From contig NZ_CP024996.1 in NCBI RefSeq assembly GCF_003719195.1, positions 5,146,001-5,210,000 of the forward strand: DNA of 64,000 bases, given 5' to 3'. Position numbers and translations under genes: made by a program. This document shows, one piece after another, positions 9,513-37,463 of this stretch; positions within the stretch are counted from its first letter, which is position 1, and the number at the start of each line of letters is the position of its first letter. The stretch comes from Herbaspirillum rubrisubalbicans (GTDB taxonomy: Bacteria; Pseudomonadota; Gammaproteobacteria; Burkholderiales; Burkholderiaceae_D). The notes beneath the pieces were generated by a model. That model saw only the letters and a list, made by a program, of their open reading frames with translations, had not been told where the DNA came from and did no database searches.

Positions 9513-10979
9513 TCAGGCGCAGGTAATTTGCAGATGGTCGATGGCGCAGAAGCCAAGCAAGGCGCGCATTTTTCGCTGTAGCCACTTTTGTACGCTGGCA
9601 GAGGCGCTCAAACCGTGTAAAAGCGCGCGCAAGCGCGCCACCAACAGGGCAATCTTCTTCATGTTCTGGGCCGCCGCCGCCAACAAGCACTGCTCGGCGA
9701 CCTTGCGCAATCCCCGCATACGGGCATAACGATGTCCGTGCAATTGCTTGGCGTCGGCGAAGCTGCGTTCTACCGTTTCCTTGCGTCGGGCATAGATGCG
9801 CTTGCCCCATTCGGTACGACGCCGATCATCCACCTTCTCCTTGGAACGCTCCCACACATGGCGCGTCACCACCTTGACCGCATTGGCGCTATTGGTGCAT
9901 TGCTCGCGTACCTTGCAGCCTCGGCATTGCTCAGGGTTGGATTTGTATTCCCGATACCCGAGTCGATTGGTCGTGCTGTAGCGCAAGGGTTGACCCTGCG
10001 GGCAGATGTATTCGTCACGGTAGGCATCGTACTCATACGCCCGTTTAAAGAATGTCCCCGGCTTGTGGTTGGGTGTGCGGTAGCCCATCACGCCGCTGAT
10101 CTCGCGATTCTCCAGTCCCTGGCAGACGGCCGGTGTGAAGTAGCCCGCATCCAGGCCAACGGCCTGTACATCAAATCCGAACGTCTGGCGCTGACGATCC
10201 AGGCGTGCCAGATAAGGCTGACTGTCATGGACTGAGGCGGGCGTGACATGGGTATCGGTAATGATGGAATGCTTGGCATCGACGGTGCGGTGATCCAGGT
10301 AGAAGAAGCCCTTGGGCTTGTCGTCGCGCACCATGTAGCCGCTCTCGGGATCGGTGCGACTGACCTTGATCTCTTTGGTGGGCGGCTCATCATCGTCGTC
10401 ACGCTTGAGCGGTTTCTTGCCATGCTCGGCACGGTCGATATCCACAGCGGCATCCAGTTCGGCCAGATAGGCCGAGGGGGTCTGGGTAACTTGAACGTAG
10501 TCGAACTTGTTCTTGTTGGCGTTGGCCTTGAGGTGGGTGCTGTCGCTGTAGAGCACACGGCCATCGACCATGCCGCGTCCAATGGCCTGGCGCACGATCT
10601 CGTCGAAGATCTCTTGATAGACGGTGGTATCAATGAAGCGGCGGCGCCGGTTCTGGGAGAAGGTGGATGAGTCCGGTACCTTGTCGGTCAGACGGAATCC
10701 GGCAAACCAGCGATAGGCCACATTGACCTGGACCTCGCGGATGAGCTGGCGCTCGCTGCGGATACCGAAGAGGTAACCGATGAACAAGAGCTTGAAGAGT
10801 ACCACCGGGTCCAGTGCCGGGCGGCCATTGTCGGCGCAATACAGATGCGCCACCTTCTCTCGGATGAACTCGAAATCCACCGCCGCGTCGATCTTGCGCA
10901 GCAGGTGGTCCTTGGGCACGAGCATCTCGATGGTCACCATCTCTAACTCGTGCTGGGCGGCTGTCGGTTTTTTGAGCAT
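9513..10979 (-). CDS. IS1182 family DDE transposase
   Basis: 488 residues. The N-terminal LVPKDHLLRKIDAAVDFEFI and DNGRPALDPVVLFKLLFIGYLFGIRSERQL are the classic DUF772/IS1182 start. Candidate acidic catalytic residues lie in VLYSDSTHLKANANK, VGLDAGYFTP and ETVERSFADAKQLHGHRYARMRG. A C-x2-C-x5-C cysteine segment (EQCRGCKVREQC) is also typical. It has full length and no internal stop, so it may be active. It is bounded by hairpins and terminal inverted repeats. Confidence 0.93.
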   Translation of the reverse strand: MLKKPTAAQHELEMVTIEMLVPKDHLLRKIDAAVDFEFIREKVAHLYCADNGRPALDPVVLFKLLFIGYLFGIRSERQLIREVQVNVAYRWFAGFRLTDKVPDSSTFSQNRRRRFIDTTVYQEIFDEIVRQAIGRGMVDGRVLYSDSTHLKANANKNKFDYVQVTQTPSAYLAELDAAVDIDRAEHGKKPLKRDDDDEPPTKEIKVSRTDPESGYMVRDDKPKGFFYLDHRTVDAKHSIITDTHVTPASVHDSQPYLARLDRQRQTFGFDVQAVGLDAGYFTPAVCQGLENREISGVMGYRTPNHKPGTFFKRAYEYDAYRDEYICPQGQPLRYSTTNRLGYREYKSNPEQCRGCKVREQCTNSANAVKVVTRHVWERSKEKVDDRRRTEWGKRIYARRKETVERSFADAKQLHGHRYARMRGLRKVAEQCLLAAAAQNMKKIALLVARLRALLHGLSASASVQKWLQRKMRALLGFCAIDHLQITCA

Positions 10980-11561: not shown

Positions 11562-11751
11562 GGGGGAGGTGGCAGCGCTTGAATCTGCTCAAGCAGCATT
11601 GTCATTAAAAATCAAATATCTTCATATTATTAAATTTTATTTCACAATCTATCATATAAGTAATAATAGTTCATAAGTACATATTTTTAGAAATCATATT
11701 TCACATCGCCTCCCCTAATATGCTCACACATCTTTTCCAGTGAGGCATTCC
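11562..11751. promoter_or_regulatory. AT-rich divergent promoter region lrp-type gene / glmS
   Basis: From about 11595 to 11705 the sequence is strongly AT-rich (runs such as TATTATTAAATTTTATTT) in an otherwise GC-rich region. It lies between two divergent starts and probably contains both promoters and Lrp-type binding sites. No single -35/-10 pair stands out. Confidence 0.5.
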
Positions 11752-13569
11752 ATGTGCGGCATCGTCGGCGCAGTAGCGCAACAAAACGTCACCCCCATCC
11801 TGCTCGAAGGCCTCAAGCGCCTTGAATACCGCGGCTACGATTCCTGCGGCGTAGCGCTGCACGTGGATGGCAAATTGCAGCGCTCGCGCAGCACCTCGCG
11901 CGTAGCCGACCTGCAGCAACAGGTGGCGCAGACCGGTCTGTCCGGTTTCACCGGCATTGCCCACACCCGCTGGGCCACGCATGGCGCCCCGGCCACCCAC
12001 AACGCGCACCCGCACTTCTCGCGCGAACGCATCGCCTTAGTCCACAACGGCATCATCGAGAACCACGACGAACTGCGTGCCGAACTGCAAGCGGCCGGCT
12101 ACGTCTTCGAAAGCCAGACCGACACCGAAGTGATCGCCCACCTGATCGACCACATGTATGACGGCGACCTCTTCCACACCGTACAGCAAGCCGTGCGCCA
12201 CCTCACCGGCGCCTACGCCATCGCCGTCTTCTGCGCCGATGAACCGCACCGCGTGGTGGCCGCACGCCAGGGTTCGCCGCTGATCGTGGGCGTGGGCGAA
12301 GGCCAGAACTTCGTCGCCTCCGACGCCATGGCCCTGGCCGGCACCACCGACCAGATCATCTATCTGGAAGAAGGCGACGTGGTCGACCTGCAGATACAGA
12401 AAGTTTGGATCGTCGACGCCGCCGGCAAGCCCGCCGTGCGTGAGGTGCGCACCGTACAGGCCTACACCAGCGCCGTCGAACTGGGCCCCTACCAGCACTA
12501 CATGCAAAAGGAAATCTTCGAGCAGCCGCGCGCCATTGCCGACACCCTGGAAGGCGTGGTCGGCATCATGCCCGAGCTCTTCGGCGACAAGGCCTACAAG
12601 GTCTTCAAGGGAATCGACTCGATCCTGATCCTGGCCTGCGGCACCAGCTACTACGCCGGCCTAACGGCCAAGTACTGGCTCGAATCGATTGCCCGCATCC
12701 CGGTCAACGTCGAGATCGCCAGCGAATACCGTTACCGCGACAGCGTCCCCAATCCCAAGTCGCTGGTGGTCACCATCTCGCAAAGCGGCGAGACTGCCGA
12801 CACCCTGGCCGCCCTCAAGCACGCCCGTAGCTTGGGCATGTTGCACACGCTGACCATCTGCAACGTCGCCACCAGCGCCATGGTGCGCGAATGCGAACTG
12901 GCCTACATCACCCGCGCTGGAGTGGAAGTGGGCGTGGCCTCGACCAAGGCCTTCACGACCCAGTTGACCGCCCTCTTCCTGCTCACGCTGGTTCTGGCGC
13001 AGAGCCGCGGCCTGCTGACCGAAGAACAGGAAGCCGAACACCTCAAGGCCATGCGCCACCTGCCGGCGGCGCTACAAGGCGTGCTGGCGCTGGAGCCTTC
13101 CATCGTAGCCTGGGCCGAAGCCTTTGCCCGACGCGAGAATGCGCTGTTCCTGGGCCGCGGCCTGCACTACCCGATCGCACTGGAGGGTGCGCTCAAGCTC
13201 AAGGAAATCACCTACATCCACGCCGAAGCCTATGCCGCAGGCGAACTCAAGCACGGCCCGCTGGCGCTGGTGACCGAGCAGATGCCGGTGGTCACCATCG
13301 CGCCCAATGACGCGCTGGTGGAAAAGCTCAAGTCCAACATGCAGGAAGTGCGTGCGCGTGGTGGCCAGTTGTATGTGTTTGCCGATGGCGATTCACGCAT
13401 CACCTCGGCAGAGGGCGTGCATGTGATCCGGATGCCGGAACACTATGGCGCGCTGTCACCGATCCTGCATGTGGTGCCGTTGCAGTTGCTGTCTTATCAC
13501 ACGGCATTGGCGCGGGGGACGGATGTGGATAAGCCGCGTAATTTGGCTAAGTCGGTGACGGTGGAGTGA
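11752..13569 (+). CDS. glmS: Glutamine-fructose-6-phosphate aminotransferase GlmS
   Basis: 605 residues starting MCGIVGAV, so the catalytic Cys becomes N-terminal after Met removal. The class II glutamine amidotransferase domain ([17 protein letters not shown]) is followed by two SIS isomerase domains ([30 protein letters not shown]-like region, [36 protein letters not shown]). The C-terminus is [17 protein letters not shown]. It makes glucosamine-6-phosphate, the first hexosamine step that feeds GlmU. The ATG at 11752 is required for the Cys start. The 3' end of the gene is the classical Tn7 attachment site. Confidence 0.97.
13531..13569 (+). other. Candidate attTn7 recognition sequence in the glmS 3' end
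   Basis: The codons for the conserved [12 protein letters not shown] tail are what TnsD binds in Tn7 systems. The putative transposon end begins 28 bases after the stop codon's last base, close to the distance known for Tn7 insertion. Confidence 0.6.
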
Positions 13570-13596
13570 GGGATGGGGAGGGGTGGTTGATGATCA

Positions 13597-15104
13597 TGTT
13601 ATGACTAAAATTACGGCTTAAATTGAGCCGTAATTTTCAATTGTTACTATAAAAATACATTACGGCTTCTAATTACAATTAGAGCCCGTTGCACTCTTTA
13701 TATTAACGGCCAAATGCTTTAGACCACGGCCGCCCCGTAATACATGCTCAGCTAAAACCTCAGCTGAGTATCTATCATGTCGATACCCAGTTGAAGAGAC
13801 CCGTTTATTTACCGTATTACCCTGCCGTTTACCCTGGCGAAATTTGTGGCTCCTGGCTTTCACGCATCAAATTCCACAACACACTAGGCATATGGAATTC
13901 CGTACTTGCTAGTCTCGGCATCTTTCAGGAACTGCGGTTTCGAGTTTTTGACTTACATCAGCCACCCGTTGCGCTTAGCTTAGTACTTCACTATTTGGGG
14001 ACGACATTGCACGACGCGATGGCGAGCATGTCTACGGTGCCATATAGCCGGACGTTTGACGCAGCGACGCCTAGCCGGCGCCATCATCTCCCGAGATTCT
14101 GCTCCCTATGTATCGCAGATGACATCGAGTCACACGGAGAGCCCTACTGGCATACCGAGCATCAATTACCCAACGTATTGGTCTGCCGTCTACATGCAGT
14201 TCTCCTACGTGACAGATGTCCCGCCTGTGACAAAATCCTAGCCACCAAAAATAAGTTTCTAGTCGAGCCCCTTACTCATAACTGCATATGTGGAGCTGAT
14301 CTTCGTGCATTGCCGCGGCGGAAGATATCGACGACTCATAAGCTCTACGCACTCTCAGAGATCAGCTATCACGCGCTTAGCGAAAAGGGCGGCTCCTTAG
14401 ATCTGCGCCAAATCATCGCATTTCTTCTGAAGAAAACCAAATCTGCGCAGGGACTTCATCAACTACTCCAACACGTTTGGGGGCGACATCCCGAAGTAGA
14501 AATATTCTGGAGCACAGACCATGCACTGACTAACATGCGCGCCTCCGATATTGCCGCCGCATTAGTAGCTCTAGGCCTCAAATACGATGAGGCAATTGGA
14601 AAAATTACCTCGCCCGCAACACATGGATACCTCACCCAGGGCGAAAAGAGGCGAAACAAGATGCCCGCCACTCTGGACGACGCCAAAAGGTCTATGTGTG
14701 ATTTCTCAGAACGCTTCCCGGGGAAACGCTTAGCAATGAATAAGGTTGCGTACGAATACTTGCTCATTCACGATCTTGATTGGCTTAACCGAGTCTTTCC
14801 ATCAGAGCGACCACGGCGCTTGCCCTCGATTCATTCTGATCGCCAATCAATCCACTCAACGATACAGCGCTGCGCAGAGTCTGGAAAACCGCACTTCATT
14901 ACGACCTATCCCGAACACATTAGAGCGCAAATCCGTGATTCTGCTTGGCTTGATGCCTACCGAGCTAAGGCTAAAAAGAAAAGTGGCCCCAAAGATGAAA
15001 CGTATGAAGAAAAGTCTCAAAGCAGGGTGAGCGAACTTATCGAAGCTATCCGCCTGTCTGAAACTCTTTCTACGCGCCCGAGAAAGATAACTACACGTAC
15101 CTTA
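13597..15104. mobile_element. Remnant of a Tn7-like element (one end plus tniQ/tnsD)
   Basis: Starts with TGTTATGACT 28 bases past the glmS stop, where Tn7 elements insert. Three copies of TTACGGCT (two direct, one inverted) lie in the next 75 bases and could be transposase-binding repeats. The only gene is a TniQ/TnsD-type targeting protein. TnsA, TnsB and TnsC genes and the opposite end are absent in the window. The distal border is placed near 15104, where sequence homologous to an MFS transporter begins. The base composition is clearly less GC-rich than the flanks. Confidence 0.65.
13607..13637. terminator. Hairpin after glmS, probable terminator
   Basis: AAAATTACGGCT and AGCCGTAATTTT form a perfect 12-bp stem with a seven-base loop. 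A-rich and T-rich flanks make it a plausible bidirectional terminator. The same TTACGGCT core recurs nearby, so it may also belong to the transposon end. Confidence 0.6.
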
Positions 15105-15134
15105 TCGTGGCGACTCTGGAATGCAGAACCATAA
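13791..15134 (+). CDS. TniQ/TnsD family transposon targeting protein, C-terminus probably truncated
   Basis: 447 residues from a TTG start. The N-terminal YYPAVYPGEICGSWLSRIKFHN matches the TniQ opening (P-x-E-x-x-x-S-W-l-x-R). The zinc-binding core is FCSLC (C104, C107), GEPYWHTEHQLPNVLVCRLH (C132, H135) and DRCPAC (C143, C146), followed by NCICGADL. TniQ/TnsD proteins bind a fixed chromosomal site and recruit the TnsABC transposase. TnsD of Tn7 binds the glmS end, which is exactly where this gene lies. The last codons (SWRLWNAEP) are read from DNA homologous, on the other strand, to an MFS gene, so the native C-terminus seems lost. Tn7 TnsD is about 508 residues. Codon use is AT-richer than its neighbours. 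Confidence 0.85.
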   Translation: MKRPVYLPYYPAVYPGEICGSWLSRIKFHNTLGIWNSVLASLGIFQELRFRVFDLHQPPVALSLVLHYLGTTLHDAMASMSTVPYSRTFDAATPSRRHHLPRFCSLCIADDIESHGEPYWHTEHQLPNVLVCRLHAVLLRDRCPACDKILATKNKFLVEPLTHNCICGADLRALPRRKISTTHKLYALSEISYHALSEKGGSLDLRQIIAFLLKKTKSAQGLHQLLQHVWGRHPEVEIFWSTDHALTNMRASDIAAALVALGLKYDEAIGKITSPATHGYLTQGEKRRNKMPATLDDAKRSMCDFSERFPGKRLAMNKVAYEYLLIHDLDWLNRVFPSERPRRLPSIHSDRQSIHSTIQRCAESGKPHFITTYPEHIRAQIRDSAWLDAYRAKAKKKSGPKDETYEEKSQSRVSELIEAIRLSETLSTRPRKITTRTLSWRLWNAEP

Positions 15135-15731
15135 CAGTAGCGAAAATGCCACCGGCAGCATGCCACCCAGCAAGAAGAGGCCACGCCAGCCATAGTGGGG
15201 CAGCACCAGGTTGGCGAAGAGACCGGCCAACATTCCTCCCAGGGGAACGCAGACGATGGTCGCGGTGACGGCAAAGGTTCGTATCCGGGCCGGACTGAAT
15301 TCTGCCGTAATCGTGGTAGAGACAGGCAGGGCACCGCCGATTCCGAGGCCGGCGAAAAAGCGCAGGATTGCAATCGTGGTGATATCCGGAGAAAGCGAGA
15401 TCAGGCTGGTAGCGATCCCGAACACGAAGACACTGCCAATGATGGCCAGGCGGCGACCGAAGCGATCTGCGAACAAGCCGGCAAAGGCGCTTCCCAAGCC
15501 CATGCCGACCAGGCCCGCGGCCACAGCCGGAGCAAACGCATTGCGTGTGACGCCCCACTCCTTGATCAGGCTGGGAATGGCAAAGCCAATCAGCTGCCCG
15601 TCGAATCCGTCCATGACGATCGACAGCGCTGCCAGGATGACCACCATCTTCTGGAAGCCGGTAAACGTCCCTTCATCCAGCACGCGCCCGATGTCGACGA
15701 CCTTTGCTTGATCGATCCCGTAGGTGCTCAT
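15102..15731 (-). pseudogene. MFS transporter (aromatic acid:H+ symporter type), C-terminal half missing
   Basis: About 209 residues starting MSTYGIDQAKVVDIGRVLDEG. It has the N-terminal six-helix half of an AAHS-type MFS transporter: SIVMDGFDGQLIGFAIPSLI (the DGFD motif), GLFADRFGRRLAIIGS (the MFS loop 2-3 motif) and GLGIGGALPVSTTITAEF. Similarity stops right after LWFCIPESPR, where a stop codon follows and the sequence becomes that of the tniQ gene. Full members are about 440-460 residues, so the second half was deleted. It belonged to the aldehyde dehydrogenase/decarboxylase cluster on the same strand and would have imported an aromatic acid. Confidence 0.85.
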
Positions 15732-15829
15732 GTGCGCTCCCGGATCGTGTCTTCGATGATGGCCGGGGCGAACGCATTGATGCGGATTGGATCGTGCTTG
15801 TGATGCAGGTGCCAGGATGTCATTTTCAT
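15728..15829 (-). CDS. Possible 33-residue leader peptide, coupled to the MFS gene
   Basis: A short frame starts at ATG 15829 with AGGAGA at good spacing (AGGAGACAGCC-ATG) and ends with TGA overlapping the MFS start as ATGA. The predicted peptide begins MKMTSWHLHHKHDPIRINAF and is His-rich near the start. No family is recognised. The ribosome-binding site and stop/start overlap are the only support. Confidence 0.4.
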   Translation of the reverse strand: MKMTSWHLHHKHDPIRINAFAPAIIEDTIRERT

Positions 15830-15933
15830 GGCTGTCTCCTTGGTTGTATCGCACGGGTCCGGTCATTGCCGGCCCGCATTGGCGATTGTTTTTATAGCGG
15901 GACGGCGTACCGCCCCGCGTGCAGCGAACTCCC

Positions 15934-17385
15934 TCAGAACGGGTACTGGCGCTGCGAGGTTTGAACCGTGATCCAACGCAGATCAGTGAATTCCGCCACC
16001 CCGGCGCTACCGCCAAAATGACCGAAGCCACTGGACTTCACTCCGCCGAAGGGCATATGCGCCTCGTCATGCACGGTCGCTCCGTTGATGTGGCAGATCC
16101 CGGACTCGATACGGCGTACCAGGTTCAGTGCGCGGGCGATATCACGGCTGAACAGTGCGGCCGAAAGACCATATTCATTGTCGTTGGCACATGCAATGGC
16201 GGCATCGTCATCCTTGACCCGCACGATGGGCTTGACCGGGCCGAAAGACTCCTCGTGATAGATGTCCATCTGCGCTGTGACATGGTCCAGCAGGGTCGCT
16301 GGCATGAGCGTGCTCTCGGCCTTGCCGCCGCACACCAGGCGTGCGCCCTTGGCAAGGGCATCATCGATCAACGCGTTACAACGCTGCACGGTTGCCAGGT
16401 CGACGACCGAACCCAGTACCACCGGCCCTTGGCGTGGATCACCCAGCGGCAGGCTACGAGCTTTGGCCACCAGGCGTGCCACGAAGTCATCCGCCACACG
16501 TTCGTCAACGATAATGCGCTCGGTGGACATGCAGATCTGCCCTGAATTGGCGAAGGCGCCGAAGGCCGCTGCCTGCACCGCAGCCTCGATGTCTGCATCG
16601 TGCAGGACGATGAAAGGTGCCTTGCCCCCCAGCTCCAGCACCGAAGGCTTGAGGTACTTGGCGCATTGGCCTGCGATGATGCGGCCTACACGGGTCGAGC
16701 CGGTGAAATTGACACGTCGCACTGCCGGATCGGCGATGATGGCTTCAACAATTTTTCCTGCATCTTCCGGCGCATTGGTGATGAAGTTCACCACGCCGGG
16801 TGGCAATCCGGCATCCTGAAATGCGTCAATGATGAGGCCATGCGTGGCCGGGCAGATTTCAGAGCCCTTGAAGATCACGGTATTGCCGCAGGCCAGCGGA
16901 AGTGCGACGGCACGCACGCCCAGGATGACAGGTGCATTCCAGGGTGCGATGCCCAACACGACGCCAGCGGCCTGGCGAACACCCATGGCGAGGTTGCCTG
17001 GGACATCGGAGGGAATGAGCTGCCCCGCGATCTGGGTCGTCATCGCTGCGGCTTCGCGCAGGCCGTCGGCGGCCAGATGCACGTTGAAAGCCGCCCAGTG
17101 ATGAGACGCACCAGTCTCGGATGCCATGGCCTCCGCAAAGGCGTCTGCGCGGGCTTGCAGCGCATCAGCCGCACGGGTAAGCAGGCTGCGGCGTTCTCCG
17201 GGGCCCATCGCTGCCCAGGCAGGGAAAGCCTCAGCAGCAGCGCGAACGGCCGACTGTGCATCCGCGACGGTCGCCGCCGGTGCTCGCGAGGCAACGCTCT
17301 CATCGAGCGGATTGCGCCGCTCAAAGCAAGCACCGCCAGTGGCTGAACGGCGCTGGCCGTTGATCAGCATGTCAACTTCTTTCAT
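15934..17385 (-). CDS. NAD(P)-dependent aromatic aldehyde dehydrogenase (benzaldehyde/salicylaldehyde/vanillin type)
   Basis: 483 residues, full length. It has the cofactor region GIAPWNAPVILGVRAVALPLACGNTVIFKGSE, the catalytic Glu in LELGGKAPFIV, the catalytic Cys in NSGQICMSTERI, EESFGPVKPIV, and the C-terminal HMPFGGVKSSGFGHFGG, typical of salicylaldehyde, vanillin and benzaldehyde dehydrogenases. It would oxidise an aromatic aldehyde to the acid. An adjacent benzoylformate decarboxylase remnant suggests benzaldehyde from benzoylformate. AGGAGGAG precedes the ATG. The gene itself looks intact, although both neighbours are broken. Confidence 0.9.
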   Translation of the reverse strand: MKEVDMLINGQRRSATGGACFERRNPLDESVASRAPAATVADAQSAVRAAAEAFPAWAAMGPGERRSLLTRAADALQARADAFAEAMASETGASHHWAAFNVHLAADGLREAAAMTTQIAGQLIPSDVPGNLAMGVRQAAGVVLGIAPWNAPVILGVRAVALPLACGNTVIFKGSEICPATHGLIIDAFQDAGLPPGVVNFITNAPEDAGKIVEAIIADPAVRRVNFTGSTRVGRIIAGQCAKYLKPSVLELGGKAPFIVLHDADIEAAVQAAAFGAFANSGQICMSTERIIVDERVADDFVARLVAKARSLPLGDPRQGPVVLGSVVDLATVQRCNALIDDALAKGARLVCGGKAESTLMPATLLDHVTAQMDIYHEESFGPVKPIVRVKDDDAAIACANDNEYGLSAALFSRDIARALNLVRRIESGICHINGATVHDEAHMPFGGVKSSGFGHFGGSAGVAEFTDLRWITVQTSQRQYPF

Positions 17386-17470: not shown

Positions 17471-18600
17471 TCAGCGCACCACGACTTCTACCAGACGGGG
17501 TTCATTCGACGATATCGCCGTCTGCAGTGCCGCGGCCAGCTCGCCGGGCTCACTCACACGCACCCCTTGGCATCCCATCGACTGCGCCAGTGCAACGAAG
17601 TCGAGGCCGGGAAGATCAGTCCCTTGGACCACGTCGCCGGCACCGAAGCCGAAAACCGGCGCGAAGTCCTGCAGGGCGGCGTAGCGCCTGTTGTTGATGA
17701 TCACGAAGGTGAGGGGAAGACGCAGCTGCACTGCGCTGTAGATGGCTTGCGGCGAGTACATGGCAGAACCATCCCCGATCAGCCCGATGACGCGTTGCTG
17801 CGGCCTGGCCAGGGCAACCCCCACCGCCGCCGGCATGCCATAGCCAAGACCGCCGCTGGCCATGGTGTAGAAGGTTCCCGGGCGTGTAAAGGGCAGATAG
17901 GCCTGCATGGTCGGACGAGATCCTGGCGCTTCCTCGACGACGATATCCTCTGCTGCGCGCACTTCTGCGAGGGTCTGCATGGCAAAGGCCGCTGACATCG
18001 GTGTCTCCGGCTCGGCGCGGGGACGCGCAGCACGCGCAGGTGGCAGCGGACGAGCGGCGGGCGGATGCTTCAGCAGCTGCGCCAACAGGTCTTGCAATCC
18101 CAGCTGGATATTGCCGACGATGGCGGTCCCGGACGGCGTCCAGGAAGCCGTCACCGGATCATCAATCAATTGGTACAGCTGCGCACCGGATGGCAGATGC
18201 GGCCCACTGCCTTCGACGTGATAGGTGAAGGCCGGAGCGCCGGCTACGAAAATCAGGTCGTGGCCATTGAGCAATTGAACGATCTTCTCGCGCATAGCCG
18301 GCAGGAATCCAGCGAACAGGTGATGGTCTTCAGGGAAGCTGCAACGCGAGGACATGGGCGCAACAAATACGCGTGCGTTGGAGACCTCGGCCAGACGAAG
18401 CACCTCATCCCAAGCCCCGGCACGGTCCAGTTCCGAACCGACGACGATGGCCGGACGCTCACTGCGGTGTAGGGCGGTGGCAAGGGCAGCGATGGCGTCC
18501 GGCTCGGGGCGGCTGCGCGTGGTGACTTCGGTGGCCTCGAGCAACTCCCCAGGCTGATCCCAGTCATCCACGGGAATGGAAACGAACAGGCTGCCACGCT
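17471..18600 (-). pseudogene. Benzoylformate decarboxylase-like ThDP enzyme, N-terminal third deleted
   Basis: The frame resembles MdlC from SLFVSIPVDDWDQP onward, through a middle domain (AFTYHVEGSGPHLP, with the family's active-site His region) to the ThDP-binding GDGSAMYSPQAIYSAVQL and FVIINNRRY. About 376 residues remain of an expected roughly 525. The N-terminal pyrimidine-binding domain, with the essential Glu and a catalytic His, is absent. A stop codon lies four codons before the first recognisable residue, at about 18600. Unless a start at GTG 18571 makes a non-catalytic protein, this is a dead gene. It pairs with the aldehyde dehydrogenase downstream. Confidence 0.82.
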
Positions 18601-26047: not shown

Positions 26048-26199
26048 ATGGCTCCCCAAGCGGCCATCATTGATAAGGACGAGTGGAATCGACTGTGGAG
26101 AGTCGATAGACGAAGGCAAGGTAGGGGCATCAGTTGGTTTCCTGGGGATAGAACAAAGTGCTTGTGCGACCGGCTTGGCGCGCCGGGTTGAGGCATGAC

Positions 26200-26471
26200 T
26201 AGAACTCATTTCATAGATAGGCGTGAGTGCGAGCGCGTCCCGTTTGGGATGAAGTGCAAGGCGCGAATTTGGGTCAAGACTGGGCGTCTTGACCCAAATT
26301 CGTAACGCAGCAATTCGCCCAAACGGGCCGCTCCCTTCGGGTTCTGCTCAGAAAGGGCGCTGGCCGCGTTGCGCTCCTTGCGTGTGGCACCGCCACACGA
26401 CGCGTCGCGCGCCTTGCCAGCGCCCTTTCTGGGCAGAACGCATCTCACGCCTATTTATGAAATAAGTTCTA
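26200..26471. repeat. 272-bp MITE-like fold-back element with nested inverted repeats
   Basis: The outer 28 bases at 26200-26227 and 26444-26471 are inverted repeats with two mismatches (core ATAGGCGTGAG / CTCACGCCTAT). TA at both outer ends suggests a TA target. Inside are an IR of 10 bp (CCCGTTTGGG 26239-26248 / CCCAAACGGG 26323-26332), a perfect 17-bp stem at 26264-26280/26286-26302 with a five-base loop, a 23-bp near-perfect IR (26341-26363/26417-26439) and a small stem CGTGTGGC-ACC-GCCACACG (26381-26399). There is no coding gene. It sits between the divergent efflux operon and the TonB receptor. Confidence 0.75.
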
Positions 26472-30049: not shown

Positions 30050-33000
30050 TCAATCCGTCATGGATGACCGCTTCGACCAGAACTTCCAGAAGGCCGGACC
30101 TGCCCCCTGAACCGCTGGCGCTTCCCCTTCGTCCTTGTCATGCGCCAGCTTGTACAACAGCGGCAACACCAGCAAGGTCAGCGCCGTCGAGGACAGGATG
30201 CCGCCGATGACCACGGTCGCCAGGGGGCGCTGGACTTCCGCACCGGTTCCGGTGGCAAGAGCCATGGGGACAAAACCGAGGGAGGCCACCAATGCCGTCA
30301 TCAAGACCGGACGCAAACGGGTCATGGCTCCCTCGTCAATGGCGTCATCCAACGAACGCCCTTCCTCGCGCAAACTACGGATGAAGGAGATCATCACCAA
30401 TCCATTAAGCACCGCCACGCCTGACAAGGCGATGAAACCCACAGCGGCCGAGATCGACATGGGAATGCCGCGCATGGCCAGCGCGAGAATGCCGCCGGTC
30501 AGTGCAAACGGAATACCGGTAAACACCAGCATCCCATCCTTGACGTTGCCAAACATCGCAAACAACAGGACGAAAACCATCAACAAGGCAACCGGAATGA
30601 CGATCTGCAGACGCTGTGTCGCCGATTGCAGGTTTTCAAACTGGCCGCCCCACGTAGTCCAGTAGCCGGAAGGAATCTTCACTTCGGACTGCAACTGGCG
30701 CTCGGCATCGGCCACAAAGCCCCCCAGGTCGCGGCCACGCACGTTGGCACTGACCACGATGCGACGCTTGCCATCTTCCCGGCTGATCTGATTGGGACCG
30801 GGAGCAATGTTGAGCGTGGCCACCTCGCTGAGCGGGATATAGCTGGTGCGCGCGGCGTCCTCTTGCAAAGGCAATGCGAGCGGCAGGCGACGGATCGCCT
30901 CCAGATCGGTACGTGCATCGTCGGGCAGGCGCACCACGATACCGAAGCGGCGGTCGCCCTGGAACAGGGTGCCAGCTTGCTTGCCGCCGATGGCGGTGGC
31001 AATCGTATCCTGGATGTCCGAGACGTTGAGCCCATAACGCGCCGTCTTCTGGTGATCGATGTCCACCGTCAGCATCGGCAAGCCCGTGGTCTGCTCAATC
31101 TTGACTTCGGTGGCGCCAGGGATCTTCTCCAGCACGGCCGAAATCTTGCCAGCAGTCTCATTGAGCACGTCCATATCATCGCCGAAGACCTTCACCGCGA
31201 CGTCACTGCGCACGCCTGAGATCAACTCGTTGAAGCGCAGTTGAATGGGCTGCGAGAATTCGTAGTTATTCCCCGGGATCTTGGCCACTTCTGCCTGAAT
31301 CGCTGCCAGCAACTCCTCATGCGTCTTCCTGGGCTTGGGCCACTGCTCTTGCGGCTTGAGCATGATGTAGCCATCGGAGATGTTCGGCGGCATCGGATCG
31401 GACGCCACTTCTGCCGTACCGGTACGGGCGAACACCCGTTCCACTTCGGGGAATTTCTGTTTCAGCGTCTTTTCGAGCTGCTTTTGCATTTCGAGAGACT
31501 GGCTCAGGCTGGTGCCCGGAATCCGCAGCGCCTGGATCGCCATGTCGCCTTCGTTCAGGCTGGGGACGAATTCGGTACCCAAGCGCGTGGCGACGGCGCC
31601 GCAGACGACGATAAGCGCGCCAGCAAAGGTCAGCACGACGGCCTTGTTGTCCATGATGCGCTTGAGCATGGGCTCATACATGCGCTTGGCCCACACCACC
31701 ATGAAGTTTTCTTTCTCGGCCACCTTCTCGCCAATGAACAGGGCAATGGCCGCCGGAATGAACGTGACCGACAGGATCATGGCCCCCATCAGGGCCGCCA
31801 CCACGGTAAATGCCATCGGCGTAAACATCTTGCCTTCGACCCCGGTCAAGGCAAACATCGGCAGATACACGATCATGATGATCAACTGGCCGAACAGCAG
31901 GGGACGGCGCGCCTCCTTGGCGGCGGCAAATACTTCATGGAAGCGTTCGCTGCGGGTTAGCGTTCTGCCGTGATGCTGCTGTGCGTGGGCCAGGCGGCGC
32001 ACGCAGTTTTCCACGATCACCACGGCGCCATCGATGATGATGCCGAAATCGAGCGCACCAAGACTGAGCAGGTTGGCACTGACCTTGTTGGTCACCATCC
32101 CGGTGAAGGTAAAGAGCATGGCCAGCGGAATGACGGTCGCCGTGATGATGGCAGCACGGATGTTGCCGAGGAAGACAAACAGCACTGCCACCACCAGCAA
32201 TGCGCCTTCGACCAGGTTTTTCTTGACCGTGGCGATGGCCTTGTCGACCAGTACCGTGCGGTCATAGACGGTGACCGCCTCCACTCCCTTGGGCAAGGTA
32301 CGATTGATCTCGCGCATCTTCTTGTCCACCGCCTGCGAGACCTTGCGGCTGTTTTCGCCGATCAGCATGAACACGGTGCCCAGCACCACTTCGCGACCAT
32401 TTTCGGTGGCCGCACCGGTGCGCAGTTCGCGGCCGATGTCGACTTGCGCGACGTCGCGCACGCGAATGGGCACGCCCTTCACATTGGCCAGCACGATATT
32501 GCCGATATCCTCGGTCGAGCCGACCTGGCCGGGAGCGCGGATGAGGTATTGCTCGCCGCGGCGCTCGATATAGCCCGCGCCGACATTGTTGTTGTTCTTT
32601 TCCAGCGCCTTGATGACCGTATCCATCGTCATGCCGTAGGAAGCCAGCTTTTCCGGGGACGGCGCCACCAGATATTCCTTGGCGAAGCCGCCGATGGTAT
32701 TGATCTCGGTCACGCCTGGCACCAGGCGCAACTGCGGCTTGATGACCCAATCCTGGATTTCGCGCAGGTCGGTCGGGGTATAGGGTGTGCCATCGGCTTT
32801 GCGCGCATCGTCTTTGGCCTCGACGGTCCAGAGATAGATCTCGCCCAGCCCGGTCGATATCGGCCCCATACCGGGGTCGATGCCGGGCGGCAGTTGACTT
32901 CTGGCTTGCTGGATGCGCTCATTGACCAACTGCCGGGCGAAATAGATATCGGTGCCATCCTGGAAGATCACGGTCACCTGCGACAGGCCGTAGCGCGACA

Positions 33001-33253
33001 GCGAGCGCACCTGTTCCAGATGGGGCAAGCCGGACATGACCGTCTCGATCGGATAACTGATGCGTTGTTCGGTCTCCAGCGGCGAGTAGCCCGGCGCTGC
33101 CGTATTGATCTGCACCTGCACGTTGGTAATGTCGGGGACGGCGTCGATAGGCAGCTTCTGGTAGCTGTAGAGCCCATATGCGCCCATCCCCAGCACCGCC
33201 AGCAGGACCAACCATCGATGCTCGATGGCAAAGCGAATGATGCGTTCAAACAT
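30050..33253 (-). CDS. czcA: Heavy-metal efflux RND permease, CzcA family
   Basis: 1067 residues. The HME-RND N-terminus (MFERIIRFAIEHRWLVLLAVLGM, LPIDAVPDITNVQVQINT) and the helix-4 signature LGALDFGIIIDGAVVIVEN mark it as a CzcA-type pump. The DFG-IIDG-VVxVEN sequence is found in Co/Zn/Cd exporters rather than Cu/Ag CusA-type ones. Further motifs are GTEFVPSLNEGDMAIQ and the second-half LSGVAVLNGLVMISF. It drives proton-coupled export of divalent cations with CzcB and CzcC. It is the last gene of the minus-strand operon czcI-czcC-czcB-czcA, 29 bases after czcB. Confidence 0.94.
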   Translation of the reverse strand: MFERIIRFAIEHRWLVLLAVLGMGAYGLYSYQKLPIDAVPDITNVQVQINTAAPGYSPLETEQRISYPIETVMSGLPHLEQVRSLSRYGLSQVTVIFQDGTDIYFARQLVNERIQQARSQLPPGIDPGMGPISTGLGEIYLWTVEAKDDARKADGTPYTPTDLREIQDWVIKPQLRLVPGVTEINTIGGFAKEYLVAPSPEKLASYGMTMDTVIKALEKNNNNVGAGYIERRGEQYLIRAPGQVGSTEDIGNIVLANVKGVPIRVRDVAQVDIGRELRTGAATENGREVVLGTVFMLIGENSRKVSQAVDKKMREINRTLPKGVEAVTVYDRTVLVDKAIATVKKNLVEGALLVVAVLFVFLGNIRAAIITATVIPLAMLFTFTGMVTNKVSANLLSLGALDFGIIIDGAVVIVENCVRRLAHAQQHHGRTLTRSERFHEVFAAAKEARRPLLFGQLIIMIVYLPMFALTGVEGKMFTPMAFTVVAALMGAMILSVTFIPAAIALFIGEKVAEKENFMVVWAKRMYEPMLKRIMDNKAVVLTFAGALIVVCGAVATRLGTEFVPSLNEGDMAIQALRIPGTSLSQSLEMQKQLEKTLKQKFPEVERVFARTGTAEVASDPMPPNISDGYIMLKPQEQWPKPRKTHEELLAAIQAEVAKIPGNNYEFSQPIQLRFNELISGVRSDVAVKVFGDDMDVLNETAGKISAVLEKIPGATEVKIEQTTGLPMLTVDIDHQKTARYGLNVSDIQDTIATAIGGKQAGTLFQGDRRFGIVVRLPDDARTDLEAIRRLPLALPLQEDAARTSYIPLSEVATLNIAPGPNQISREDGKRRIVVSANVRGRDLGGFVADAERQLQSEVKIPSGYWTTWGGQFENLQSATQRLQIVIPVALLMVFVLLFAMFGNVKDGMLVFTGIPFALTGGILALAMRGIPMSISAAVGFIALSGVAVLNGLVMISFIRSLREEGRSLDDAIDEGAMTRLRPVLMTALVASLGFVPMALATGTGAEVQRPLATVVIGGILSSTALTLLVLPLLYKLAHDKDEGEAPAVQGAGPAFWKFWSKRSSMTD

Positions 33254-33282
33254 GATTGTCGTCTCTCTTGAAGTCGCCGCTC

Positions 33283-34497
33283 TCAGTGGCTGTGCTCGGC
33301 GGAACCCTTACCCAGTTCCGCCTTGATGGCGAAGCTGCCGGTAGCGGCATATTCGGTACCGGCATCGATGCCGGACTTGATTTCAACGAACTTTCCACTG
33401 GCGCGCCCGAGGGTCACCTCCTGGGCCGCGAAACCGCCGGGCACGCGCACGAAGACCACGTTCTTGCCATCAACGGTCTGGATCGCATCGGCTGCCACCG
33501 CGACCGGCACCTGCGCCTCATCGGAGACCACCTCGACATTGACGAACAGACCCGGGCGCCAGATCTCGCCGGTATTGGGCAACACCACATGGGCCTTGGC
33601 CGTGCGGCTCTGTTCACCAATCAGGGAACCCACATACGAGATATTGCCTTGGGCACTAGCGCTCAACGCGGTGGCCTGGACCACGACTTTCTCGCCGACG
33701 CGAACGACCTGCATGTCCTTGGGCGACACAATGATCTCGGCCCACACGCTGGAGAGATCGGAAATCAGGAAGGCGTTGACGTCTTCACGCACGGCCTCGC
33801 CCAGGCCGAGATGTTTCTCGACCACGGTCCCATCGAAGGGTGCGCGGATTTCATAACGGTTCAGGCTGCCAGAAGACCCGCTGGCCCCAATGGCGCGCAA
33901 CTTCTGCTGTGCATTGCGCACCGCCACCTCGGCTTCACGCAAGGCGCTCTGGGCTTGCAGATAATCCTGCTCGGCAGAAATCTTTTGTTCCCACAGCTTC
34001 TTTTCGCGCTGATAGGCCGTGCGGGCGAGGGACAGACGCTGCTCGGCATTGAGCAGTTCGGAACGCAGCTCCGAGATGGCGCTGCTGTTGATGACGGCCA
34101 GCACCTGTCCCTTCTTCACCTTCTGCCCCAGAGTGGCCGATACCGACTCGACGATGCCGGCCACCTGCGGCACGACATGGGCGGTGCGATCTTCATTGAA
34201 GCGAATCTCGCCCGGCAACTGCAGGCTGGAAGTGATCTGCATGGCGCCGGCCGTCTTGAGCTCGATGGCAGCAGCGGCCATCTGCTCCTGGTCCAGTGCG
34301 ATCTTTCCCTCTTCCTTGTGATCGCTGCCCTGGTCCTCGCCGGGATGTTCGTTGTCCTGATGGCCGCCCTCTTCCTGATGGGCAGATGGCTTTGCGTTCT
34401 CCCCTTGCGAACCGTTGCCCTTCATCAGGGTGATCCCCGCGACAAGCGCTGCCATGACGATGATGGTCGCGATGGTGAATGTCTGTTTCTGGCTCAT
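33283..34497 (-). CDS. czcB: Heavy-metal efflux adaptor, CzcB family
   Basis: 404 residues with one N-terminal membrane segment (FTIATIIVMAALVAGITLM). A His/Glu/Asp-rich stretch follows (HQEEGGHQDNEHPGEDQG and beyond, residues about 39-65), likely metal-binding as in CzcB/CusB relatives. The adaptor core includes GEIRFNEDRTAHVVPQVAGIVESV and RYEIRAPFDGTVVEKHLGLGEAV. It bridges CzcA and CzcC and may deliver metal to the pump. It lies between czcC (eight-base gap) and czcA. Confidence 0.92.
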   Translation of the reverse strand: MSQKQTFTIATIIVMAALVAGITLMKGNGSQGENAKPSAHQEEGGHQDNEHPGEDQGSDHKEEGKIALDQEQMAAAAIELKTAGAMQITSSLQLPGEIRFNEDRTAHVVPQVAGIVESVSATLGQKVKKGQVLAVINSSAISELRSELLNAEQRLSLARTAYQREKKLWEQKISAEQDYLQAQSALREAEVAVRNAQQKLRAIGASGSSGSLNRYEIRAPFDGTVVEKHLGLGEAVREDVNAFLISDLSSVWAEIIVSPKDMQVVRVGEKVVVQATALSASAQGNISYVGSLIGEQSRTAKAHVVLPNTGEIWRPGLFVNVEVVSDEAQVPVAVAADAIQTVDGKNVVFVRVPGGFAAQEVTLGRASGKFVEIKSGIDAGTEYAATGSFAIKAELGKGSAEHSH

Positions 34498-34505
34498 GTT
34501 TTATC

Positions 34506-35792
34506 TCACTCGGCTGGAGAGGTCTCGATGCCGGCCAGACGATCCAGGTCTGCGGCTGCTTGGAATGCAGTAGAAAGCGCTTTCCAGTACTGCGCTTTGG
34601 CTTGGAAATAGGCGCGTTGGGCGTCAAGGACATCCAGATATCCGAACTTCCCCAGTTCGAATCCTGTGCGTGCTGCCTGGTAGGCCGATTGCGCTGCGGG
34701 GACGATCTCATCGCGCAAGGCGGTGGCCTCTTCCCTGGCATTGCGCAGGCGCTCGAAGCTCTGCGCGGCCTCGCTCTGCATCTGCACTTCGATGACTGAC
34801 AGCGTGTCCCGCGCGATATCGACACGTTTGAGGGCTTCGAGCTCATTGCCTTTGTTGCTGTCAAAGACAGGAATGGGAACCGAAAAGCCGACCACCCACA
34901 TGTTCCGAGCGTTTGATTCATCGCGCTTGTTGCCCAGGGTCAGGCTCACATCGGGCGTGCGTTTGCTGGTCTCGATACTGGCCAGCGCACGCCGACGCTC
35001 CACTTCCAGCTGGGCCAGCCTGACGGTGGGACCGCTAGCGACCTTCTCGGTCAGTTGCGCAATGGCCGGCAAGGGCGGCAGCGACTCGACGCCATGGTCG
35101 GTCAGTTCAAAGCCATTGCCGACGCTGCCCCATAAGGTCGCCAATTTCTTCTGCGCGACAGTGAGATCGCTATTGGCTTCATTGAGCTCCAGCCGCGCAC
35201 TGGATTGCGCTACCTGCGCCTTGGTTTGCTCGACGGGAGAAATCTTTCCTGCCATGACGCGCCGTCCCGTCATCTGCGCCGAGGTGTTGGCCAGACCCAG
35301 CAGTTCGCTGGCCAGACGCTGGCGCTCGGCGGCCACCATGACGTCGTAGTACGCAGCCACTACGCCGGCGCGTATTTCGGTACGCTTGACGGCATAATCC
35401 AGCAATGCCATATCGCGCGCACGCTGGGCAGCGTCAATACGCACGCTGCGCTTGCCGCCAAGTTCGATGGGCTGCGTGATCTGGTAGGTGGTAGTCCGGC
35501 TGGACTTGCGGAAATCCTCGATCAACGCCGAAAACTCTGGATTGGGTCTGGCGCCGGCCTGGAGGATCGTCGCCTCGACCGCCTCGATCTCTTTTCTGGC
35601 GGCGGCGAGCGTCTTGTTCTGCTCGAATGCCAGGCTGATCGCAGCCGGCAGCGACAGCAGTCGAGTTTCTTTATCTAACGCTGACGCCGTGGAGGGCGGA
35701 TTGTATTGCGTAGTTGAAGGCGCAATGGATTGCGCTTGGCTGGAGCCGGCCGCGAGCAGCGCGAGCCCCAGCAAGAAGCTGTGCCGATACAT
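34506..35792 (-). CDS. czcC: Heavy-metal efflux outer membrane channel, CzcC family
   Basis: 428 residues with a signal peptide (MYRHSFLLGLALLAAGSSQAQS). The outer membrane efflux repeats contain LPAAISLAFEQNKTLAAARKEIEAVEATILQAGARPNPEFSALIEDF and YQITQPIELGGKRSVRIDAAQ, which is the CzcC-specific pattern. No lipobox is present, as is usual in CzcC. It provides the outer-membrane exit duct of the metal pump. Confidence 0.92.
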   Translation of the reverse strand: MYRHSFLLGLALLAAGSSQAQSIAPSTTQYNPPSTASALDKETRLLSLPAAISLAFEQNKTLAAARKEIEAVEATILQAGARPNPEFSALIEDFRKSSRTTTYQITQPIELGGKRSVRIDAAQRARDMALLDYAVKRTEIRAGVVAAYYDVMVAAERQRLASELLGLANTSAQMTGRRVMAGKISPVEQTKAQVAQSSARLELNEANSDLTVAQKKLATLWGSVGNGFELTDHGVESLPPLPAIAQLTEKVASGPTVRLAQLEVERRRALASIETSKRTPDVSLTLGNKRDESNARNMWVVGFSVPIPVFDSNKGNELEALKRVDIARDTLSVIEVQMQSEAAQSFERLRNAREEATALRDEIVPAAQSAYQAARTGFELGKFGYLDVLDAQRAYFQAKAQYWKALSTAFQAAADLDRLAGIETSPAE

Positions 35793-35861
35793 CGAATTCT
35801 CCGGTAATGAAAAGGGGAATTCGGCGAGAGCAGTTGGTGTGTGGGGATTGTCCTCGCCGAG

Positions 35862-36215
35862 TCAAGCGGCGAGCGGCCAATTGGGCTTGTCAGGCCCGTC
35901 GGCGATATGCGAGGCAGGATGGGGAAGGTGGGCTGGAGACGAGGCCTGCGCCGTGGCTGGTGCAATGATGACGATGGTGCTACCGGCCTGGACCGACTTC
36001 ATGGCACAAAAGTGGCACAGGGAACAGTCCATGTCGCGGTCACCGGGCTTTGATTTTTGGTAATCAGCCTGTTCATCCCCCTTCAAGGAAGGATGATCGT
36101 GATGCCCCAGATGCATCGGAACCCTATCATTTTCCGCTTGGCAATATGAGCCCACTGCCGCCCAGGAGAGCTGCACCGGCAACAGGAAAGCAAGCAAGAG
36201 GATCAGAGTGCGCAT
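35862..36215 (-). CDS. czcI: CzcI-like small periplasmic protein
   Basis: 117 residues with a signal peptide (MRTLILLLAFLLPVQLSWA). The mature part has HLGHHDHPSLKG and the CSLCHFCAMKS cysteine/histidine segment, then hydrophobic VIIAPATAQASSPAHLPHP. Size, position as first gene of a czcCBA operon and the His/Cys content match the CzcI group, proposed to modulate metal induction. The sequence is poorly conserved between species, so the name rests on layout as much as on similarity. Confidence 0.75.
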   Translation of the reverse strand: MRTLILLLAFLLPVQLSWAAVGSYCQAENDRVPMHLGHHDHPSLKGDEQADYQKSKPGDRDMDCSLCHFCAMKSVQAGSTIVIIAPATAQASSPAHLPHPASHIADGPDKPNWPLAA

Positions 36216-36679
36216 GGTTGGGACGAATGCTACGGCAGAGGTGCGAACAAAAAGATTGCCTGGTGATTACTGATTTGTAATGAATGCCGGAGTTGACTCG
36301 GTCTGCGTCTTGTCGGCATTCCCGATCTGGACGATGCCGTCATGCCGAAATGCCGTACTGAGTGCGGGCAGCGTCTGTCAGGCGCATCAGCATAGGCTCC
36401 ACCAAGGCCTACCCGGCAACGCCGGAATAACGATCACATGGGCATTTCGGCATCCTGCGCACTATTGGCATATTTCCTGCTAGAAGAGAAAGGTGTTGCA
36501 CTCCTGCCGCGCCGCCTCAACCAGTCGTCGCGGCAGTGCAACAAATCCTTTACCATGCGCCCCAGCAGCGGTTGTCGACGACAGAAGGCAGCCGCAATGC
36601 ATTGGCTGCACCGGCTTACCCGCTGGCCTGGCCATTGACGTGACGCATTCGTTATCCACGATCGATGATTGGTATTGCC
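36216..36679. other. Divergent intergenic region czcI / YitT-like gene
   Basis: 464 bases with no supported gene. Near czcI there are ATTAC-N6-GTAAT (36266-36281) and GAATGCCG/CGGCATTC (within 36282-36320) inverted repeats that could bind a regulator of the metal-efflux operon. No known czcR/cusR regulator gene is in the window. The rest shows nothing clear. Confidence 0.4.
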
Positions 36680-37348
36680 ATGACCACTTCCACCGCCCCT
36701 TCCGCGACCTCTTCCCCCATTGCGTCAGCAGGCGAACGCAGCACCCCGGCCACCACCGTGCGCCACAACTGGATCGACAATCTGCAGGGCCAGCTCTTCG
36801 GCGTCGTCATGATCGCCTTCGGCATGTCCATGCTGCACAGCCTGGGGCTGATCATCGGTCAGATAGCAGGGGTCGCCTTCCTGGTGACCTATGTCACTGG
36901 CATGAGCTTCGGCATGGCCTTCACCCTCATCAACCTGCCCTTCTACCTGCTGGCGGCGCTGCGCATGGGCGCGGCCTTCACCTGGCGCACGCTGGCAGCC
37001 GTCACGGCGGTGTCGGTGCTGACCAATATCGCCGGCAACTACATCAGCTACCGCCATCTCGATCCCATCGTCGGTGCCGTGCTGGCAGGCCTGTGCGTGG
37101 GCATCGGCCTGATCGGCCTGTTCCGCCACCAGGCCAGTTGCGGTGGCATGAGCATCCTGGCCTCATATGTCCAGGAGCGCACCGGTTTCAAGGCTGGCTG
37201 GCTGCTGATGGGTTTCGATCTGGTGCTGTTTGCCACGGCCGCCTTCTTCCTGCCGGCGGAGCGGGTCCTGTATTCGCTGGTGGGGGCCATCACCATGAAT
37301 CTATTCGTGGCCTGGAATCATCGCTACGAGTGGTATATCGCCAGATGA
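36680..37348 (+). CDS. YitT family membrane protein (second copy)
   Basis: 222 residues from ATG 36680 (an ATG at 36665 is also possible). A Ser/Thr/Ala-rich N-terminus of about 30 residues precedes five or six membrane segments (QLFGVVMIAFGMSMLHSLGL, VAFLVTYVTGMSFGMAFTLI, WRTLAAVTAVSVLTNIAG, GAVLAGLCVGIGLIGLF, LVLFATAAFFLPA). The central RHQASCGGMSILASYVQERTGFKAGWLLMGFDLVLF lines up with RHGASLGGINVVTLFLQDRYG of the protein at 2030-2662, so the two are paralogues. Function is unknown. It lies 115 bases before a NasR-type regulator. Confidence 0.78.
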   Translation: MTTSTAPSATSSPIASAGERSTPATTVRHNWIDNLQGQLFGVVMIAFGMSMLHSLGLIIGQIAGVAFLVTYVTGMSFGMAFTLINLPFYLLAALRMGAAFTWRTLAAVTAVSVLTNIAGNYISYRHLDPIVGAVLAGLCVGIGLIGLFRHQASCGGMSILASYVQERTGFKAGWLLMGFDLVLFATAAFFLPAERVLYSLVGAITMNLFVAWNHRYEWYIAR

Positions 37349-37463
37349 GCGCCGCATAAAAGCGCGCAGGGCGCTGCCGTCTGCCTGGACGATTCCATTA
37401 CAATCGCGGGAAATTCATGCATCCTGTGAATACGACTAGCCCTGCGATTTTTATGTACTTCCC

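Follow-up and report, generated by a model that had tools for sequence, protein, structure and literature searches.

In Tn7, according to the parts of the account drawn on here (PMC11406308), the C-terminal part of TnsD binds glmS and the N-terminal TniQ domain is the part that contacts TnsC. Elements with two TniQ proteins are also known, and in many of them, as far as the sections of the two papers used here go (PMC11406308, PMC10293859), one of the pair serves a chromosomal site. A literature search returned nothing on Tn7-like elements in Herbaspirillum, for which the print record may still hold some reports. Here we describe the region downstream of glmS in H. rubrisubalbicans, whose genome is a single contig of 5.6 Mb, from a stretch of 64,000 nucleotides (the window) and from related glmS flanks in Herbaspirillum sp. 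YR522 (G021), H. chlorophenolicum CPW301 (G033), H. huttiense NFYY 53159 (G028) and other genomes. We are highly confident that the window contains, at attTn7, an immobile relic left by a two-selector Tn7-like transposon and reduced to one end and a truncated tniQ1 gene.

The glmS gene (11740 to 13569, plus strand), identified by its Pfam SIS and GATase domains, has the attTn7 recognition region at its 3' end and is followed by a Tn7-like transposon end, CATGTTATGACTA...TTACGGC (13595 to 13666, plus strand), recognized by alignment with three relatives and by a jump in identity to YR522. The two genomes are 87% identical over the last 370 nt of glmS and 99.3% identical over 13594 to 15108, and this abrupt onset marks a transposon boundary. 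The initial annotation had placed a candidate end at a TGT 28 bases after the glmS stop; a TGT is indeed found at +28 (13597), but the boundary is probably the CATGTT at 13595, since in H. chlorophenolicum a CCACA duplication fits a CATGTT start and the flanks mismatch with a TGT start. CATGTT lies at +26 from the glmS stop in the window, YR522 and H. huttiense and at +25 in H. chlorophenolicum, and occurs in five of the six ends compared (window, YR522, H. huttiense left end and both H. chlorophenolicum ends), the exception being the right end of H. huttiense, where no target duplication was identified. Across the flanks of these four genomes the end reads CATGTT(A/G)T(G/T)ACTA, a few variable bases, TACGGC and then a second site, ATTnnTACTAT...ATTAnGGC; in the window a second TnsB-site-like repeat spans 13640 to 13666. 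It is this placement of CATGTT at the attTn7 position, along with a related motif beside tnsA in two relatives, that identifies the sequence as a family end. The repeats reported to follow the end do exist, as three copies of TTACGGCT (13611, 13626 on the minus strand, and 13660), but three copies were reached in 6 of 100 shuffles, so that the count by itself falls short of significance and the evidence lies in the arrangement common to the relatives. A repeat search also revealed a near-perfect palindrome within the end, AAAATTACGGCTTAAATTGAGCCGTAATTTT (13607 to 13637), identical in YR522 and absent from H. huttiense and H. chlorophenolicum in the alignment. By analogy with the CCACA duplication, the ATGAT preceding the end (13590 to 13594) is a candidate target-site copy; no partner was found for it, and the single CATG+ATGAT in the window (31874) is not accompanied by a matching end.

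Downstream of this end, the tniQ-type gene described as AT-richer than its flanks and about 220 bases after glmS was recovered as an open frame at 13791 to 15134, starting with TTG 222 nt after glmS, with a GC content of 0.46-0.52 against 0.57-0.65 on either side. Its 447-aa product belongs to the TniQ family, matching the full length of the PF06527 model (E=5.2e-12; 47 bits, the cut-off being 27). The proposal that an intact targeting gene had been kept alone is not supported. Homology to tniQ stops at 15108, and the last eight codons of the frame are antisense MFS sequence; tniQ1 is 3'-truncated, and the fragment (13791 to 15108, plus strand), delimited by Pfam, protein alignment and structure models, retains the N-terminal TniQ domain and the middle and has lost the greater part of the helical C-terminal region present in full-length relatives. 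TniQ1 relatives measure 518 and 535 aa (518-593 aa overall); beyond the window break P0002 runs on for 83 residues, and P0003 and P0004 also continue. In the structure model of the full-length relative P0003 the break falls inside helix 426-433, within a helical region (residues 400-514, pLDDT 71-87 by blocks) that by our reading may have helix-turn-helix-like spacing, in a model that is weak overall (pLDDT 61.5; TM-scores 0.24 and 0.27). The best PDB fold match of this model is TnsD in the TnsD-TnsC-DNA complex (Foldseek probability 0.99, E=3.8e-3), and at E<=0.001 Foldseek gave nothing; a PDB sequence search with the window protein gave no match at E<=0.001 either, and the eight chains returned by a profile search (E 0.05-0.9) include three that are TniQ or TnsD. 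A complete orphan gene was considered and rejected because P0002-P0004 extend past the end of homology and the DNA match to YR522 stops at 15108. No full-length copy of the exact subfamily was seen (the YR522 copy is frameshifted, and P0002 is missing its N-terminus), and the parent is therefore reconstructed from relatives at 37-40% identity. No relative was found among viral contigs, and a 28% match in B. cenocepacia is a tniQ-like sequence split across two frames.

The point at which tniQ1 breaks off is a deletion or rearrangement junction, where the YR522 match (13594 to 15108) overlaps a match to G008 (15103 to 15897) by a 6-bp microhomology, TATCGT (15103 to 15108). From 15103 the window is 96-97% identical to a cluster in the G008 glmS flank, in inverted orientation relative to G008. 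The cluster comprises an MFS transporter gene that is whole in G008 and here lacks its 3' part (15103 to 15737, start approximate, minus strand; MFS_1 E=2e-24, covering positions 2-176 of the 347 in the profile; closest NCBIfam entry an aromatic acid/H+ symport family, below the family cut-off), a presumed aldehyde dehydrogenase-like gene (15934 to 17385, minus strand), and what we take to be a thiamine-diphosphate decarboxylase-like gene (17471 to 18588, minus strand) without its 5' part, the G008 match ending at 18588 and the product measuring 366 aa against 561 aa in G008. Because this cluster is both inverted and cut on either side, a simple deletion does not suffice to account for everything.

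The reported absence of tnsA, tnsB and tnsC was borne out by our searches. No tnsA was found with PF08722 in the window or with TnsA query proteins over 13070-37400; no tnsB with PF09299 (which also misses the TnsB of H. huttiense), with the H. huttiense TnsB itself or with the query set over 13070-37400; and no tnsC with TnsC query proteins over the same interval. The window accordingly lacks, in these searches, the TnsB-type transposase, TnsC ATPase and TnsA endonuclease genes of an intact Tn7-like transposon. It has one truncated tniQ gene in place of two tniQ/tnsD genes adjoining tnsC, and the glmS-side end in place of two inverted ends with a 5-bp target duplication. A pattern scan of the window for a second end, allowing up to three mismatches, returned the known end only, and a looser motif with up to four mismatches added one four-mismatch match upstream of glmS (11648, minus strand), which we take as chance. 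Similarly, a BLAST search of the genome with the 197-nt end found no second copy, its matches being the known copy and its own palindrome, and the interval 13500-40000 contains three pairs of repeats 11 nt or longer within 150 nt (16159, 16333 and 31284), all inside reading frames. A lone but mobile element was rejected on the grounds that neither the window nor the genome searches yielded a second end.

To assess the attTn7 site across the genus, we surveyed 34 genomes, of which one (G027, 63% complete) gave no glmS match, leaving 33 flanks, those of 32 other relatives and the window. In 12 of 33 flanks, as against 1 of 300 control stretches, a direct repeat of 10 nt or more lies no further than 150 nt from the attTn7 position; compared with 60 shuffles each, 14 flanks reach P<=0.05 and 19 do not. 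Moreover, a TGT starts between +19 and +36 in 22 of the 33, compared with 21% of 300 controls. Some of these flank repeats may represent terminators and not ends of transposons; in the window, a scan of 13400-14000 found no terminator. Searches with 17 query proteins, glmS among them, detected Tns-like proteins in the glmS flanks of 8 of the 32 relatives, a lower bound, since flank length ranges from 0.5 to 122 kb per genome and several draft genomes have short flanks. These include tnsA, tnsB and tnsC with TniQ in H. huttiense and G011, tnsA and tnsB with TniQ in G030, and tnsB with TniQ in G024 and G015, while YR522, G032 and G001 have TniQ alone, like the window.

Comparison of the relatives for fuller elements, which had been proposed as a check, located tnsA, tnsB, tnsC and tniQ2 in both H. 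huttiense and H. chlorophenolicum. In H. huttiense the order downstream of glmS is tniQ1, tniQ2, tnsC, tnsB, tnsA. Its TniQ1 (P0004) has 535 aa and is 37% identical to the window protein, and its TnsB (729 aa), which has no Pfam match, owes its name to its position and to an NCBIfam transposase match that falls well short of the family cut-off. The H. chlorophenolicum tnsA, tnsB and tnsC are 60-66% identical to these, and its tniQ2 is broken. In both species the end motif is located 30 nt from tnsA, to its outside (0 and 2 mismatches). With up to three mismatches 1.2 matches are expected per 32 kb of shuffled sequence, and the motif is also matched once elsewhere in 39.8 kb of H. huttiense and twice in G030; the motif alone is thus weak evidence, and what counts is the equal spacing beside tnsA together with the strand. 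In H. chlorophenolicum the left end after glmS and the right end beside tnsA, which sit on different contigs, are both flanked by CCACA if the element starts with CATGTT, giving two inverted ends and a 5-bp duplication across two contigs. Since such transposon versions exist, the objection that the same gene might recur in many relatives with no transposon version does not apply. The initial annotation's view that attTn7 took up a Tn7-like element, most of which has since disappeared, is supported by the family end and by the fuller versions in relatives. It had also supposed that relatives' elements carried cargo, and the fuller versions there do contain other genes. In YR522 (L071, 2533-17281) large genes stand behind the same end and tniQ1, possibly as defence-type cargo.

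Immediately outside the H. chlorophenolicum CCACA lies a different Tn7-like end, AATGAATAAAGTTGGTCG, resembling the glmS-adjacent sequences of G008, G029 and G013 and having a 17-nt inverted match in G006. Two different ends thus stand back to back with CCACA between them (L138, 6066-6200), which reads as serial insertion, or stacking, of different Tn7-like elements at attTn7. In another family of the order, G168 has tnsA, tnsB, tnsC, tniQ2 and tniQ1 in a row (L134, 7562-16353) beside a presumably apaH-like gene, which the element apparently interrupts, and not at glmS; neither its distal end nor the family end motif was found. In H. huttiense and G168, two tniQ/tnsD genes lie next to tnsC. 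G319, tried as an intact TniQ1-only element, has a glmS-side end-like sequence and a 570-aa TniQ1 and no distal end in 18 kb, and was set aside.

The TnsD domain, PF15978, bears on which of the two selectors survives in the window. It is found on TniQ2 of H. huttiense (E=1e-38) and G168 (E=5e-52), on the selector of a glmS-adjacent tnsABC element in G367 (E=2e-45), and on TniQs of G024 (one of two), G032 and G001. By contrast, it is found on none of the seven TniQ1 proteins with an intact N-terminus (those of the window, P0003, P0004, P0005, P0006, G168 and G319), and up to E=1 it has no match in the window protein or in P0002-P0006, P0002 being N-terminally short. By this domain the window protein is not a TnsD-type selector; TniQ2, which carries the domain in relatives, is absent from the window, and the kept gene belongs to the companion TniQ1 lineage and is probably the second selector. 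A less likely alternative, which we hold to be possible, is that the kept gene was itself the glmS-recognizing selector, TnsD in function, and that the relic preserves part of the homing protein. TniQ1-type genes do occur by glmS without tnsABC in YR522 (17.6 kb) and in G319 (from another family of the order; 18 kb), three glmS-linked TniQs, those of G015 and G030 and the second one of G024, lie near a tnsB-like gene and give no PF15978 match, and the best fold match of a full-length TniQ1 relative is TnsD. Nevertheless, the partition of PF15978 between TniQ2 and TniQ1 points the other way, as does the G168 element, which has both TniQs and adjoins the apaH-like gene.

We regard it as very improbable that selection has maintained the truncated TniQ as a host factor, such as a dominant-negative protein that binds TnsC and closes attTn7 to newcomers. 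The open frame takes in the N-terminal TniQ domain in full, and in Tn7 this domain is the TnsC-contacting part, in the passages of the source used (PMC11406308); the protein's cluster has records from two contigs. The close copies, however, are broken in different ways, by a frameshift in YR522 and by the missing N-terminus in P0002, which resembles neutral decay, and the frame has a TTG start and no promoter-like site in 13400-14000 (0 found, 1.2 expected in shuffles). There is only a slim chance that the truncated TniQ1, with its TnsC-contacting domain kept and its C-terminal region gone, brakes Tn7-like elements at glmS in trans; were it to do so, decayed selectors would influence which elements can stack at attTn7.

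The genome does contain other transposition genes, named partly by position, in three further sets that are Tn7- or Tn5053-like. Near 27-33 kb lie tnsA-B-C with TniQ, near 1283-1287 kb a set of tnsB, tnsC and tniQ, and near 1346.7-1351 kb tnsA-B-C. These sets answer the proposed check for tnsABC elsewhere in the genome. The H. huttiense TnsB has a single match in this genome, with 23% identity. A deliberate non-autonomous element, comprising an end, its own selector and cargo and mobilized in trans by another element's TnsABC, would fit these sets and the 99.3% identity of end and tniQ1 in two species, by which the unit moved, but is highly unlikely given the failure to find a second end in the window and genome searches, the truncated selector and the low identity to the family TnsB. 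A lone protein still directing a transposase encoded elsewhere, as first suggested, finds no support. The relic is an ordinary decayed transposon, most likely inactive, at a busy integration site.

For this decayed transposon we infer the following history. The ancestor would have been a two-selector element, with TnsA, TnsB, TnsC, a TnsD-type TniQ2 and a companion TniQ1, that inserted at attTn7 after glmS; by comparison with Tn7, TniQ2/TnsD most likely recognized the glmS 3' end and TnsABC would have made the insertion. Later, a rearrangement at the 6-bp microhomology would have fused the interior of tniQ1 with that of an MFS gene in the adjacent island DNA. The 3' part of tniQ1 would have been lost in that join, and tniQ2, tnsABC and the other end either then or in other steps.

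The wider flank extends to a conserved chromosomal region on the far side of the island (36466 to 38723, plus strand; right island border approximate), delimited by aligned Herbaspirillum stretches. The alignment starts at 36466-36467 in seven of the nine stretches containing the 37464 gene, and not in G013 and G018, which extend at least 3 kb upstream. From glmS to the 37464 gene is 23.9 kb in the window, 50.5 kb in G019, 56.4 kb in G024 and 121 kb in H. huttiense. The window therefore has a roughly 24-kb glmS flank with a one-ended, selector-truncated relic, compared with flanks of 50-121 kb in three relatives. An IS1182-family transposase lies at 9513-10979, between what we take to be glmU and the genes preceding glmS. 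A repeat of about 275 bp with terminal inverted repeats GAACYCATTTCATARATAGGCGTGAG (26198-26471), a MITE-like element, is also present in the G024 and G008 glmS flanks, with 96% identity between species, and a cluster at 30061-36217, presumably metal-efflux CzcCBA-like, has an 80-83% counterpart in the G019 and H. huttiense glmS flanks at differing distances.

Collectively, these flanks make the remodelling of a glmS island visible, from the stacking of Tn7-like elements in H. chlorophenolicum to a microhomology join that erases transposition genes while other island genes remain. With the TniQ1/TniQ2 pair, the question of which target the second selector of a dual-TniQ element serves can be put to a specific example. 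Like Tn7 (TnsABCDE) at attTn7, the locus shows insertion about 25 nt after glmS, end repeats and a TniQ-domain selector; unlike Tn7, it keeps one end and a truncated selector without tnsABC, the family termini resemble CATGTT...AACATG, and in H. huttiense tnsA lies at the glmS-distal end. The glmS-linked tnsA/tnsB/tnsC/TniQ elements of H. huttiense and G011 in the genus and of G367 in the order share the target site of the window, which differs from them in having no tnsA, tnsB or tnsC. Judged against the portion used of the description of dual tniQ-tnsD Tn7-like transposons (Faure et al., 2023, PMC10293859), the related family agrees in having two TniQ beside tnsABC and stands apart in its large TniQ1 (518-593 aa in relatives) with a C-terminal helical region of its own.
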